Below are positions 50,646 through 62,637 of a stretch of 64,000 nt of DNA, piece by piece. Source of the stretch: Candidatus Frackibacter sp. WG13 (GTDB lineage: Bacteria > Bacillota > Halanaerobiia > Halobacteroidales > Acetohalobiaceae). The notes beneath the pieces were generated by a model. That model did no database searches, had not been told where the DNA came from, and was given only the letters and a program-made list of their open reading frames with translations. The position numbers and the translations under genes were made by a program. The stretch covers positions 62,001-126,000 of the forward strand of contig NZ_FOTT01000004.1 in NCBI RefSeq assembly GCF_900114655.1, given 5' to 3'. How positions within the stretch are numbered: the stretch's first letter is position 1; each line of letters begins with the position of its first letter.

Positions 50646-50915
50646 ATAAAAAGACCTCCCCCCCACTGTAGATAAACTACAGAGGCGAAAGGTCCGCGGT
50701 TCCACTCTGATTTTAACCAGACTGACTTACTAAAGTCAACCTGATTCCCTCAATAGTCTTTTAACGGTTCACTAACCGTCATACCCTACTAATTATCAGG
50801 CATGAAGCTCACAGATGCACTTCAACCAATCCTTTCTTAGAGACACTTCCAGCCAATGATGTCTCCTCTCTGTAAAGAAAGCTGTTGGTTTACTTTTCTG
50901 GTCATAGCATTTGGA
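50646..50915 (-). promoter_or_regulatory. Cysteine-specific T-box leader of cysE-cysS
   Basis: The T-box core AGAGTGGAACCGCGGACC (about 50689-50707) is followed by a strong hairpin (50652-50693) and U-run (50646-50651). Stem I has AAAGTAAACCAA, apical GGCTGGAAG and then GGTTGAAG-TGC-A, so the specifier is TGC (Cys, 50819-50817). The bulge UGGA pairs with U73 of tRNA-Cys, an independent match. The leader therefore raises transcription when tRNA-Cys is uncharged. Confidence 0.95.
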
Positions 50916-51019: not shown

Positions 51020-52489
51020 TTATGAAATCAAATCTAAAGATTGTTCAATTCTTTTTACTGTTTCTTCTTTACCTAAGATTGATACCACATGATATAATTC
51101 AGGGCCGGAACCTTTTCCGGTTATGGCATATCTAGCTGGATGGAAGAATAACCTTCCTCCTACTGGCAAATCTTTTAAGATAGCTCGCATTTCTTCTAGG
51201 ACTGATTCTGGACTATAATCTTCTAAGGCTCTTAATCTATCACGTAGTGTTTCTAATACTAGATCAACATCTTCTTGCTGAAAGCATTCTATTACTTCTT
51301 CTTTGTCTTCATACTCCATTTCACCAAAGAAAATATCAACGTGATCAACGATCTGAGCCACATAATCTAACGAATCACGTACTAAATCTACTATTTTAGC
51401 AATCCATTCTCTCTTTTCGGAAATTAATTCATCGTCAACATATCCTCCATCTTTTAAATATGGAATAGCTAAATCAATGATTCTATCTAAGTCGGCTTCT
51501 TTGATGTAGTGGCTATTCATCCAATTTAACTTCTCTACATCGAAGACAGCAGAGCTCTTCGTTACTCTATCCATAGAAAATCTATTAACTATCTCATCAA
51601 TAGTAAATATCTCTTCATCATTCTCCGGCGACCAGCCTAATAAGGATAAAAAGTTAATCAAAGCCTCTGGAAGATAACCTCGTTTCCGATACTGGCTGAC
51701 ATAGACATATGCTTCACCGCTTCTTTTACTTAATTTCGACTTATCTGAACCTAAAATCATTGATAAATGAGCAAATTTAGGCGTATCCCAATTTAAAGCT
51801 TCATATATCAAGATCTGCTTTGGCGTATTAGATAGATGATCTTCACCACGAATAACATGACTAATTTCCATCAAATGATCATCAATTACTACTGCAAAAT
51901 TATATGTTGGAATACCATCAGACTTAACAATTACAAAGTCATCTAAAACTTCGCTACTAAACTCTACATCACCTTTGATTATATCTTTCACTACAACTGT
52001 CTCTTCTTTTTCTGGTAACTTAAATCTAACTACTGGTTCACGACCTGCTGCCTCTAACTCTTCCTTCTCTGATATGGACAGTTCGCGACATTTGCCATTA
52101 TACTTAGGAGCCTCGCCTTGCGCCTTAGCCCTTTCTCGCATCTCATCTAACTCGTCTTCGGTGCAATAACAATAGTATGCTTTATCTTCTTCAAGTAACT
52201 TCTCTACATATTCCTCATAAGTATCTAACCTTTCACTTTGACGATATGGACCATAGTCACCACCAACTTTAACTCCTTCATCCCAATCTAGACCTAACCA
52301 CTCCATCTCACGATGAATAATTTCTTCAAATTCAGTAGTAGAACGTTCTTTATCAGTATCTTCAATACGTAAAATGAAGCTCCCATCTTCTTTTTTTGCA
52401 TATAACCAATTGAATAAAGCTGTACGGATATTACCAATATGGATCTGCCCGGTAGGACTTGGTGCAAATCTTACTCTAATATTACTCAT
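51020..52489 (-). CDS. gltX: Glutamyl-tRNA synthetase
   Basis: A 489-residue class I synthetase with SPTGQIHIGNIRTALFNW (HIGH motif) and KLSKR in DKSKLSKRSGE (KMSKS motif). It may also charge tRNA-Gln, as is usual in lineages with GatCAB; this cannot be shown from here. The ATG at 52489 has AAGGAG 6 nt upstream; ten codons of extension in front are not conserved-looking. Confidence 0.97.
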   Translation of the reverse strand: MSNIRVRFAPSPTGQIHIGNIRTALFNWLYAKKEDGSFILRIEDTDKERSTTEFEEIIHREMEWLGLDWDEGVKVGGDYGPYRQSERLDTYEEYVEKLLEEDKAYYCYCTEDELDEMRERAKAQGEAPKYNGKCRELSISEKEELEAAGREPVVRFKLPEKEETVVVKDIIKGDVEFSSEVLDDFVIVKSDGIPTYNFAVVIDDHLMEISHVIRGEDHLSNTPKQILIYEALNWDTPKFAHLSMILGSDKSKLSKRSGEAYVYVSQYRKRGYLPEALINFLSLLGWSPENDEEIFTIDEIVNRFSMDRVTKSSAVFDVEKLNWMNSHYIKEADLDRIIDLAIPYLKDGGYVDDELISEKREWIAKIVDLVRDSLDYVAQIVDHVDIFFGEMEYEDKEEVIECFQQEDVDLVLETLRDRLRALEDYSPESVLEEMRAILKDLPVGGRLFFHPARYAITGKGSGPELYHVVSILGKEETVKRIEQSLDLIS

Positions 52490-52529
52490 TGTCTTCTCCT
52501 TCCTATACTTCAGATTCATATTTACAAAT

Positions 52530-52579: not shown

Positions 52580-53353
52580 TTAAATTACACTCATTCCCAC
52601 TGCTACCTGTTCCGGTCCATCGACTAAAGCATGACCGAATTTACCAAAAATAGCAACTGCTACTCTACCTTCTCCACGAACGATAGCTACCTTAAATCCT
52701 CCACCTAGCCCTGGATTGATTAGGTCAAGTTGAGTATAAGCATCTTTAACCGCACTAGAAATAGCTAACTTATCTCTCATCCTTTCTCTAACAACACCAC
52801 GAGCAATGGCTGCTACTGTAGCACTTTCACGTAATTTGATCGGTAAATTCTCAGCATTAGCTCCAGTTTGCGTAATTGCTGGCTTATAACCATAACCTTT
52901 AATCTTGTCTAACCAGTAATTTTCATAATCTCTACTTCTCGTCATAGCTAAGTAGATAGCTGAACTTTCTGGACTTAACTTTGCTTCTCGTTCTTCTTGT
53001 ACATAACCAGAAACGATATCATCAGTAGTTATGATTCCAACTAATTTGTCATCTTTATTGAAGACCGGCACTCCACCCAGTTGATTATCTGACAAGATTT
53101 GGGCAACCTGTTGGATTGTATATTCTTGAGTAACCCCAATTATCTCGGTAGTCATAACCTCTTTAACTTCTAATTCAAAATCACGCTGTTTAACTAAATC
53201 TCCATCCGTTATAATCCCTACTACTTCTCCCAGATTATCTTCTACTACTAATCGACCAATATTATGTACAGACATAATTCTTTCAGCTTCAGCAATAGTT
53301 GCATTTTCGTTTACTGTGATCACATCTTTAACCATTAGGTCTTTAACTAACAT
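52580..53353 (-). CDS. CBS-domain pair fused to a HutP-like domain
   Basis: A 257-residue protein. Residues 1-58 and 61-117 are two CBS domains (VKDLMVKDVITVNENATI, VVGIITDGDLV; VKEVMTTEIIGV, LVGIITTDDIV), a Bateman module that commonly binds adenine nucleotides. Residues 130-257 resemble HutP, the RNA-binding antiterminator: FKVAIVRGEGRVAVAIFGKFG and a GxExVAVGxxxI ending. The histidines that bind metal in Bacillus HutP appear replaced (Gln at the last one), so its ligand may differ. It lies 2 nt after ispF and before gltX, an insertion relative to the Bacillus order. The ATG at 53353 has AAAGGG upstream. An adenylate-sensing RNA-binding regulator is my inference. Confidence 0.75.
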   Translation of the reverse strand: MLVKDLMVKDVITVNENATIAEAERIMSVHNIGRLVVEDNLGEVVGIITDGDLVKQRDFELEVKEVMTTEIIGVTQEYTIQQVAQILSDNQLGGVPVFNKDDKLVGIITTDDIVSGYVQEEREAKLSPESSAIYLAMTRSRDYENYWLDKIKGYGYKPAITQTGANAENLPIKLRESATVAAIARGVVRERMRDKLAISSAVKDAYTQLDLINPGLGGGFKVAIVRGEGRVAVAIFGKFGHALVDGPEQVAVGMSVI

Positions 53354-53355
53354 AT

Positions 53356-53835
53356 TTAACACCCTTTCTTTATTATACTGGCAATCGATTGAGCTGCAAT
53401 CCCTTCTCTTCTACCAACAAAACCTAGCTGCTCTGTTGTAGTTGCTTTAATATTAATTTGACTTAGCGGAATAGCTATTATTTTCGCTATATTATTCTTC
53501 ATCTGGGAAAGATAAGGAGCCATCTTAGGCTCCTGAGCAATAATTATAGTATCTAAATTATTAACTTGATAATTATCTTTAGTTAATAAATCATTAACTT
53601 TTTCTAAAAGTTTTAGGCTTGAGATTCCTTTATAATCAGAATTAGAATCTGGGAAATGCTTGCCAATATCACCAGCACCAATAGCTCCTAATATAGAATC
53701 CATAATAGCATGTAAGAGAACATCAGCATCCGAATGTCCTTTTAAACCTAAATCATAATCTATCTTAACTCCACCTAAAATTAATTCTTCATCACCAACC
53801 AGTCTATGAACATCATATCCAATTCCGACTTTCAT
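53356..53835 (-). CDS. ispF: 2-C-methyl-D-erythritol 2,4-cyclodiphosphate synthase
   Basis: A 159-residue MEP-pathway enzyme. The metal ligands Asp8 and His10 are in GYDVHRL, and His42 in [27 protein letters not shown] and [17 protein letters not shown] are typical. It starts within the ispD stop (1-nt overlap). Confidence 0.97.
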
Positions 53836-54524
53836 TATGTCCTCCTTTTAAGAATTGCCTCTGCAATTACTAAATCTTCTGGAGTCGTCACCTTCAAATT
53901 CTCATAACTCCCTTTAGCTAGCTTCACTCTCTCTCCTAATCGCTCTACTAGCATCGAACTATCAGTTCCTTTAAACCCATCAGCCATAGCTTCTTTGTAA
54001 GCTTTTAGAACTAAAGCATAATTAAAAGCTTGTGGCGTCTGAATAGCCCATAATTCATTACGGTCAGGCGTCTTTTTTACAAACCCTTCATCATCTATCC
54101 TCTTAATAGTATCCTTAACCGGGACAGCTACTCCTGCTGCTTGATACTCCTTCACCTGATTAATAACCTTCCGTAAAGTATCTGCTGTAAGCAACGGCCT
54201 TGCTCCATCATGGATCAAAGCATATTCAGCCGAGTCAACTGCTTGTAATCCATTATAGACTGATTCTTGCCTAGTAGCGCCTCCAATTACAACTTTACTT
54301 ACTTTATTAAAGTTATATTTTTGAACTACTTCTTCCTTACAATAATCTAGCTCATCTCCTCTAGTAACTACTATTATCTCTGTAATTAAATCTGAGTCTT
54401 GAAAAGCAGCAATCGTATGAGCTAATACAGGTTTGTTCAATAAAGAAAGATACTGTTTATTCAACTTACTCTTCATTCTTCTTCCTTGCCCGGCAGCAGG
54501 AATAACAGCTACTATTTGTCCCAT
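53835..54524 (-). CDS. ispD: 2-C-methyl-D-erythritol 4-phosphate cytidylyltransferase
   Basis: A 229-residue enzyme forming CDP-methylerythritol. The nucleotide-binding [28 protein letters not shown] and [11 protein letters not shown] motifs are complete. The ATG at 54524 follows AAAGGA at 10 nt; sixteen further codons upstream lack a ribosome-binding site. Confidence 0.96.
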
Positions 54525-54662
54525 TCTTATCCAATCCTTTATCTTAATATTATCTACTTTAAGGTCTCGCATAATTAATTATTAATGTTAAAATTCGGTG
54601 CGAATTATGCTCAAAATTTAATTATAAAATTTAATTATAAAATATTATTTAAAGTATAATTC

Positions 54663-56405: not shown

Positions 56406-57536
56406 TTAAAGATATATTCTCTGCTCTAATAACGCTTGGTCCCGTAATCTCTTTAAGCCTTCTTTGATAGCTTGGGCTCTTACTTCCCCTACTCCATCTA
56501 CATCATCTAACTCATCTATTGATGCATTTAGGACTTCTTGGAAGTTATCAAAAGCCTTAATCAGATTCTCAATAACAGGCATTGGAAGTCTAGGAATCTT
56601 ACGTAAGAGACGATAACCTCTTGGTGAAACAGAAAGGTCTAAAACGCTCATATTACCTCCATAACCTAACTTTTTGCTAATCGTTGTTAGACTAACTAAA
56701 TCATCTGATGCAAAGTCAGATATGTTATCCAAAATTTCTTCTGGAGATACTATTGAGTCTTCAATTTCTTCTTTAGCCTCTTCTTCAACATCTTCCTCTA
56801 AATCTAATTGTGATTGAGTGATATAATCTTTAATTAAAAGAATTCCTTCATCTTTCACATTAGCTAATAGTTCTTCTAGTTGCATATTAATTAGACGACC
56901 TTCGGTTCCTAATTCATTAATATACCTCTCTATCTCTTTCCCAATTCGCAAAACCATCTCGGTTCTCTGCAAAACTGTTGTTACATCAGAAATTGTAACT
57001 AAATCTTGAAATTCCAAAGCACTTAATTTATTTAAAGTCTGGTCTAATACACTACGGTACTTTTCTAGAGTTTGAATGGCTTGATTAGCTTTAGCTAGAA
57101 TCACTCTAATATCTTCTAAGACATACTTCTGTTCATCTTTATATAAGGATATTATATCTCTTCGTTGTGAAATAGAAATTACTAACTCTCCTGTCTGCTT
57201 AGCTACTCTCTCGGCTGTTCTATGTCGTGTTCCGGTCTCCATAGAAGAGATTGACGGGTCAGGAACCAACTGAGCATTAGCGCATAAAATTCTCTTGCAA
57301 TCACTACTTAAAACTATCGCTCCATCCATCTTTGCTAATTCATATAAACGAGCAGAAGTTAACTCACTATTAATATTAAAACCACCATCTACTATCCCTA
57401 GTACCTCTTCACTATCACCAACTACTATTAATCCTCCTGTTTTAGCTCTTAATATATTCTCTAAACCTTCGCGAAAAGGAGTTCCTGGAGCTAAAAATTT
57501 AAGCACTTCTCTAAATCCCTCTTGTTCAGGCTGCAC
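56406..57536 (-). CDS. disA: DNA integrity scanning protein DisA, diadenylate cyclase
   Basis: A 376-residue enzyme producing c-di-AMP. The DAC domain has MDGAIVLS and GTRHRTAER, the catalytic DGA and RHR motifs. A coiled region with an acidic stretch leads to a C-terminal helix-hairpin-helix DNA-binding domain (SIDELDDVDGVGEVRAQAIKEGL-type, about 340-365). The GTG start (57536) is placed 13 nt after GGAGG, which lies in the radA end, so coupling with radA is likely. Confidence 0.96.
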   Translation of the reverse strand: MQPEQEGFREVLKFLAPGTPFREGLENILRAKTGGLIVVGDSEEVLGIVDGGFNINSELTSARLYELAKMDGAIVLSSDCKRILCANAQLVPDPSISSMETGTRHRTAERVAKQTGELVISISQRRDIISLYKDEQKYVLEDIRVILAKANQAIQTLEKYRSVLDQTLNKLSALEFQDLVTISDVTTVLQRTEMVLRIGKEIERYINELGTEGRLINMQLEELLANVKDEGILLIKDYITQSQLDLEEDVEEEAKEEIEDSIVSPEEILDNISDFASDDLVSLTTISKKLGYGGNMSVLDLSVSPRGYRLLRKIPRLPMPVIENLIKAFDNFQEVLNASIDELDDVDGVGEVRAQAIKEGLKRLRDQALLEQRIYL

Positions 57537-61584: not shown

Positions 61585-62637
61585 TCATTTATTATTAACC
61601 CTCATTCTAATCAATTCTGCTCGCTTTTCATCACTTTCTTCTGGACTTAACTCTCTTCCTTCTAACCTCTGCAATGCTGGTGCACTAATTAAGACCATCA
61701 ATTCATTGAATAGATTAGCTGGTATATCTTCTATTATCCCCAAATTTATACCTAATCTTACATCTGATAACAGCTTCATCGCTTCTTTACTTGATATTTT
61801 ATAAGCATTCTTTAAGATTCCATAGGCTCGGAATACTGTATCGGTTAAATCTAGCTTACTTCTCTTCATTAACATCTTTTGAGCACTTCGTTCTTGCTCA
61901 ATAACCTGTTTAATAACTCCTTGTAAATTCTCGATAATCTCTTCCTCAGTAGGACCTAACGTTACTTGATTAGAAATTTGATAAATATTACCTAACGCCT
62001 CTGTCCCTTCACCATAGAGACCCCGTACTGCTAAACCTAACTGTGAAGTTGCCCTTAAGACCTCATTAATTCTCCTAGTTAGACTTAAAGCTGGCAAATG
62101 CAGCATCACCGATGCTCTCATCCCAGTTCCGGCATTTGTAGGACAAGCCGTCAAGTAACCATACTTCTCATTAAAAGCAAAGTTTAATTCTGACTCCAAA
62201 AAGTCATCAACTCGATTGGCTAACTCCCATGCATCTTCTAACTGTAGACCAGGAACTAAGACCTGCATTCTTAAATGATCTTCTTCATTAACCATAACAC
62301 TAATACTTTCATCATCAGTTAAAGATAAAGCCTTATAAGCACCAGGTTTAGCATGTTGAGGGCTAATCAAATGCTTCTCAACCATCACTTCTCTTTCTAA
62401 GGTTGGAATAGATTCAAGCTCTAACAACTTTAAACCAAATTCATCATCCTTATTTAGAACCTTCTCTACTCTTTTTACTACTTTTTGCGCATCCTCCTCA
62501 GAAGCATTATTAGGAAAAGGTAAGTTATCTAAGTTTCTAGCTAACCTAATTCGACTACTAATTACTGCATCAGAATCAGGCCCCGCTCCCTTCATCCATT
62601 TATTAAGAGTATTATTAATCTTATTTGTCCAAGACAT
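61585..62637 (-). CDS. mcsB: Protein arginine kinase McsB
   Basis: A 350-residue phosphagen-kinase-fold enzyme that phosphorylates arginines to mark proteins for ClpCP. SSRIRLARNLDNLPFP and the catalytic loop CPTNAGTGMRASVMLHLPAL are clear. GGAGG lies before tandem ATGs (62640, 62637); I favour the second. It follows mcsA closely. Confidence 0.96.
   Translation of the reverse strand: MSWTNKINNTLNKWMKGAGPDSDAVISSRIRLARNLDNLPFPNNASEEDAQKVVKRVEKVLNKDDEFGLKLLELESIPTLEREVMVEKHLISPQHAKPGAYKALSLTDDESISVMVNEEDHLRMQVLVPGLQLEDAWELANRVDDFLESELNFAFNEKYGYLTACPTNAGTGMRASVMLHLPALSLTRRINEVLRATSQLGLAVRGLYGEGTEALGNIYQISNQVTLGPTEEEIIENLQGVIKQVIEQERSAQKMLMKRSKLDLTDTVFRAYGILKNAYKISSKEAMKLLSDVRLGINLGIIEDIPANLFNELMVLISAPALQRLEGRELSPEESDEKRAELIRMRVNNK

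Follow-up and report, generated by a model that had tools for sequence, protein, structure and literature searches.

A CBS-fused HutP protein conserved behind ispF in the Halanaerobiia: a candidate ligand-controlled regulator

The gene lying directly behind ispF in Candidatus Frackibacter sp. WG13 encodes two CBS domains, of the nucleotide-sensor kind, joined to a HutP-fold domain, an architecture confirmed by Pfam models and a predicted structure, and as judged by sequence comparison it is an old and strongly conserved gene of the whole class Halanaerobiia, not a one-off fusion. It was found in a stretch of 64,000 nucleotides (the window; positions 62,001 to 126,000 of contig NZ_FOTT01000004.1), and its product, here called CBS-HutP, is probably an unstudied ligand-controlled regulator. 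To our knowledge HutP, an RNA-binding antiterminator familiar from textbooks, has a single known role. The CBS-fused form described here is kept in a class and beyond it, beside ispF; the Frackibacter genome has no hut pathway, and the HutP half of the protein is more conserved than the neighbouring enzymes. No paper on a CBS-HutP protein was found in a literature search that had most subscription papers outside its reach, and the architecture may already be listed in domain databases.

Results

The CBS-HutP gene and its neighbours

The features of the locus are collected in Table 1. The start of CBS-HutP was placed at the ATG that has a ribosome binding site-like sequence at Shine-Dalgarno distance, with GTG 53362 as the alternative. 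For gltX the likely true start is ATG 52489, 90 nt past the CBS-HutP stop. The neighbours are those named in the initial annotation, in the order ispD-ispF-CBSHutP-gltX-cysE-cysS.

Table 1. Features of the CBS-HutP locus, in coordinates of the window.
Feature	Position	Strand	Basis or remark
CBS-CBS-HutP gene, 257 aa	52580..53353	minus	Open reading frame; Shine-Dalgarno-like AAAGGGTG before ATG 53353
CBS domain 1, residues 1-57	53183..53353	minus	Pfam PF00571; motif GIITDGD, Asp52 invariant in orthologues
CBS domain 2, residues about 60-118	53000..53176	minus	Pfam; motif GIITTDD, Thr109 and Asp112 invariant
HutP domain, residues 131-257	52583..52963	minus	Pfam (131-256) and fold; conserved NPGLGGGFK and GKFGHALVDGPEQ
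ispF, directly upstream, abuts CBS-HutP start	53356..53835	minus	
ispD	53835..54572	minus	
gltX, next gene downstream of CBS-HutP	51020..52519	minus	
T-box leader RF00230, between gltX and cysE	50678-50914	minus	Rfam, 121.7 bits
disA (c-di-AMP synthase), in same conserved cluster	56406..57536	minus	Named by eye from sequence and gene order

The C-terminal domain belongs to the HutP family and has its fold

The initial annotation had read the protein as two CBS domains followed by a HutP-like C-terminal domain, and both the Pfam scores and the fold match bore this out. The Pfam CBS model (PF00571) matched two stretches above its cut-off (97.6 bits, E 5.2e-28), and the HutP model (PF09021) matched residues 131-256 at 108.5 bits (E 3.7e-31; cut-off 25), spanning positions 4-127 of the 128 in the model. 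As the same model scores Bacillus subtilis HutP, the founding member of the family, at 112.3 bits, the HutP domain of the fusion is a match of nearly equal quality. The initial annotation had singled out the absence of a significant HutP match in this half as the outcome that would overturn the reading, and such a match was found. An AlphaFold2 model of residues 126-257, computed from 18 aligned orthologues and of moderate confidence (mean pLDDT 66.5, pTM 0.67), matched the B. subtilis HutP structures 1wmq, 1vea and 1wpv with a probability of 1.00 and E values of 3e-5 to 9e-5, the TM scores of 0.54-0.61 being subject to the moderate confidence of the model. These entries were the sole fold matches at E<1e-3 among 350,542 PDB chains. 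HutP was missed when PDB sequences were searched by phmmer with the HutP domain, or with profile A3 (built from the HutP domain of CBS-HutP) and profile A4, and the link to HutP comes only from the Pfam HutP model and the structural comparison. The arrangement of the domains relative to each other was poorly defined in the predicted structure (pTM 0.52).

CBS-HutP is conserved throughout the class and occurs beyond it

A survey of CBS+HutP architectures in relatives, proposed in the initial annotation, found orthologues in 49 of the 59 genomes of the class with profile A3, and the frame was open over at least 256 aa in 48 of the 49 members that have the gene. In an even sample of the phylum the CBS type was present in 36/398 genomes, 22 of them outside the class and belonging to eight families. 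A3 scores of the CBS type (at least 199 bits) were separated by a clean gap from those of other HutPs (at most 52 bits); the single match at 61 bits lay on a second contig fragment in one genome (G231). The fusion is obligate, in that all orthologous HutP domains reside in CBS fusions. In a FastTree tree of 107 HutP domains of three types, the 60 rows of the CBS type formed one clade (support 0.995), while the 41 rows of standalone clostridial HutPs (support 0.998) and the 6 rows of an hprK-adjoining type (support 0.991) each formed another. The carriers that could be named by sequence were all Halanaerobiales: Halonatronum, Halanaerobacter, a Halothermothrix bin and Halanaerobium.

Conservation is uneven along the protein. 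Within the order the mean pairwise identity was 84% for the HutP half, which is near-frozen along its entire length, as against 55% for CBS1, 53% for CBS2 and 44% for the linker. In the orthologue from Halanaerobium the HutP half was 78% identical to that of the window, which is more than any neighbouring protein of the same locus reached (45-66%). Protein comparison thus shows the HutP half to be under strong purifying selection, and the difference between it and the CBS domains would fit a fixed output coupled to a tunable input.

HutP domains in general are widespread in the phylum: PF09021 matched in 257/398 genomes, well past the hut operons. The Frackibacter genome itself has a second, standalone HutP of 138 aa (L001:1474-1890), and in most of the loci sampled across the phylum (L027-L038, L055-L083) the standalone type immediately precedes a gene for an aroH-type chorismate mutase. 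The third type, of about 155 aa and occurring in the sister family, adjoins hprK (HPr kinase, read by eye; L039, L040, L041 and L050).

The gene is coupled to ispF and is cleanly absent from a few genomes

CBS-HutP lies behind ispF in all 19 Halanaerobiales loci (L003-L021), and where the contig was long enough the order was radA-disA-carD-yacL/pilT-ispD-ispF-CBSHutP, usually followed by gltX-(cysE)-cysS-(mrnC). The coupling to ispF is tight: with starts taken from the longest open reading frame, 38 of 43 distinct loci had no more than 30 nt between the ispF stop and the CBS-HutP start, and the median distance was 3 nt. Downstream, gltX was the next gene in the class loci sampled, with the exceptions of L005 and L113. 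The gene is likewise behind ispD/ispF in the distant carriers, where, in other classes, a murA-like gene (read by eye) often replaces gltX. This conservation of place across the class and beyond indicates that the gene tracks ispF and not gltX, and that it belongs to the old order. The earlier suggestion that it interrupts an ancient gene order therefore did not hold; CBS-HutP is itself part of that order in the class and outside it, and is missing from a few genomes.

Those few genomes differ in what occupies the site. In family f142 (L154, L155 and L156) a fused ispDF of 383-393 aa is followed directly by gltX, and in G436 a 250-nt gap separates ispF from gltX. In G003 the slot is filled by an inverted-repeat, MITE-like element (L152:1997-2395) that has 139 partial or full matches in the same genome. 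Searching with tblastn gave no remnant of CBS-HutP in G003, and no full-length relative of the protein query P0001 was found in G003 or G436. The absence of the gene from some near-complete genomes means that it is dispensable in some lineages and is not essential. Such clean absence might be expected of a functionless fusion that arose by chance or is decaying, but that explanation is ruled out by conservation, the gene being open and conserved in nearly every carrier of the class with a HutP half of the high identity given above.

The CBS pair resembles adenosine-ligand sensors

The fold matches of the CBS half were the CBS pairs of adenylate-sensing AcuB, of MJ0100 and of CcpN (3fv6), and the best full-length matches were AcuB proteins, in a match that is carried by the CBS half. 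Asp52 and Asp112, which lie in the GhxTxxD motifs of CBS-HutP, were invariant in 17/17 orthologues. In AcuB, Asp52 and Asp122 bind ribose (PMC13121692), and by motif position, without superposition, they correspond to Asp52 and Asp112 of CBS-HutP. On the same basis the phosphate-binding residues R33/H34/R51/K120 of AcuB become G33/R34/G51/T110. The proposal in the initial annotation that RNA is controlled by energy charge is thus plausible as far as the residues go, since both ribose-binding aspartates are kept as in AcuB-type adenylate sites. The ligand is, however, not narrowed to adenylates by this comparison, because MJ0100, which binds S-adenosylmethionine (SAM) or MTA, was among the best PDB sequence matches of the CBS pair (E 2.2e-17).

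The presence of disA in the same conserved cluster raised a different candidate, that the CBS pair senses the c-di-AMP made by DisA in the manner of DarB and CbpB, which are c-di-AMP-binding CBS proteins; most of the named carriers are halophiles, to which osmoregulation by c-di-AMP could be useful. The residues that contact c-di-AMP in DarB (Y45, T46, R131 and R132; PMC9848473) are nevertheless not kept, corresponding by motif position, again without superposition, to I32, G33, T110 and D111, and CBS-HutP scored 25.8 bits on the NCBIfam CbpB model, whose cut-off is 125. The presence of disA in the cluster also has reasons unrelated to CBS-HutP, and we consider c-di-AMP sensing unlikely. By these residue mappings the ligand is more likely to be of the adenosine type but distinct from c-di-AMP, the candidates being AMP/ADP/ATP, SAM and MTA.

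The B. subtilis metal histidines are missing and NAG triplets are not enriched in the cluster

The 107 HutP domains were aligned with B. subtilis HutP by L-INS-i, an alignment that is uncertain in the region of helix 2 and at the shortened loops. In the 59 CBS-type domains, the histidines at positions 73, 77 and 138 of B. subtilis HutP, which we take to coordinate Mg2+, are aligned with I/M/L/V, N and Q. The corresponding residues are G, G and E in standalone HutPs of the clostridial type (the histidines are absent in the 42 canonical-type rows) and R, R and E in HutPs linked to hprK. The initial annotation had noted that these histidines are missing, with which the alignment agrees, and had concluded that the effector is different. 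That conclusion is weak: ordinary clostridial HutPs lack the histidines too, so their absence is the general condition in HutPs not of the Bacillus type and no mark of the fusion. Of E55, T99, T128 and E137, presumably the RNA-contact residues of B. subtilis HutP, only E137 is kept in the CBS type, where the four align to T/I, G, K/R and E. To judge from the alignment, these replacements count against an RNA-binding role.

A search of the Frackibacter genome for histidase (PF00221) gave no match, while a control found the B. subtilis enzyme; neither of its two HutPs therefore regulates a hut pathway. NAG triplets, which the initial annotation had expected as repeats near gltX or cysE, were not enriched in the intergenic regions of the cluster (14 seen against 24.3 expected, in a scan that is rough for some distant loci owing to imperfect orientation and open reading frame masking), and this idea was not supported. 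The gap between CBS-HutP and gltX varied from 10 to 305 nt, and a conserved leader before gltX was rejected as a candidate on account of this variability. A search of 20 kb with Rfam gave only a T-box and a tRNA. Both the lack of NAG enrichment in the cluster and the variable gltX gap count against the protein being an RNA regulator. They tell in particular against attenuation by CBS-HutP of its own operon, through NAG repeats in a leader before gltX or cysE, as a means of controlling the aminoacyl-tRNA and cysteine genes. That idea draws on the neighbourhood only, with gltX as the usual next gene in the class; in other classes the murA-like gene often stands there instead, and the long cysE leader is a T-box of the ordinary kind, making own-operon attenuation very improbable.

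The failure to find an RNA motif in the NAG scan or the gltX gap comparison is also what would be seen if the protein were an AcuB-like adaptor, the main rival reading, in which the HutP-fold domain would bind a protein or small molecule and regulate a housekeeping enzyme according to the level of adenylate or SAM. AcuB, which gave the best full-length fold match, works by binding AcuC, other HutP paralogues adjoin single metabolic genes (the aroH-type chorismate mutase and hprK), and a near-frozen HutP half is what a conserved protein interface would be expected to produce. The AcuB match, however, is due to the CBS half, whereas the solved relatives of the HutP domain all bind RNA, and strong conservation fits RNA binding too. 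We regard the adaptor as a serious possibility, though not a probable one.

Discussion

The reading that we tentatively prefer, while rating it somewhat short of probable, is that CBS-HutP is a HutP-fold regulator that is gated by an adenosine-type ligand and alters RNA termination or expression. The protein would be made within the ispD-ispF transcript as a two-part regulator. Its N-terminal Bateman module, formed by the two CBS domains, would bind an adenosine-containing ligand of the AMP/ADP/ATP or S-adenosylmethionine type, a ligand class suggested by the kept aspartates, and binding would rearrange the C-terminal HutP-fold domains. These may form the same kind of assembly as HutP and bind an RNA target that is short and probably single-stranded, oligomerisation and RNA binding both being suggested by the HutP fold. 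CBS-HutP would in this way act in trans on a housekeeping gene and alter its termination or expression. The CBS pair would thereby take the sensing role held by histidine and Mg2+ in B. subtilis HutP. A wider generalisation seems to us rather doubtful: that HutP, instead of being chiefly a histidine regulator, is a family of ligand-gated RNA regulators that serves central metabolism broadly in the Bacillota, with CBS-HutP as its directly adenylate- or SAM-gated, RNA-binding antiterminator.

If CBS-HutP does bind RNA, an adenosine-type signal would be tied directly to transcript control. Either way, the role of HutPs outside the hut pathway becomes testable, with a defined gene, defined neighbours and natural loss strains.

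Among known systems, B. subtilis HutP (1vea, 1wmq, 1wpv) shares both Pfam family and fold with CBS-HutP, which differs from it in having the N-terminal Bateman module and two shorter loops, in lacking His 73/77/138, and in being tied to ispF in a genome without hut genes. The standalone clostridial HutPs, represented by the second copy in the same genome, are of the same family and likewise lack the B. subtilis metal histidines, but they have no CBS domains, form a separate clade, fall below the gap in A3 score and have conserved histidines of their own. AcuB (CBS-CBS-ACT) is like CBS-HutP in joining a Bateman sensor with a ribose-binding Asp pair to a small C-terminal output domain; that domain is ACT in place of HutP, and the phosphate-binding residues of AcuB are not kept in CBS-HutP. 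MJ0100 has a CBS pair that is similar in sequence, but it is archaeal and without HutP. CcpN, finally, also joins a CBS pair to a nucleic-acid regulator domain, in its case a DNA-binding helix-turn-helix at the N-terminus, whereas the HutP domain of CBS-HutP is at the C-terminus.
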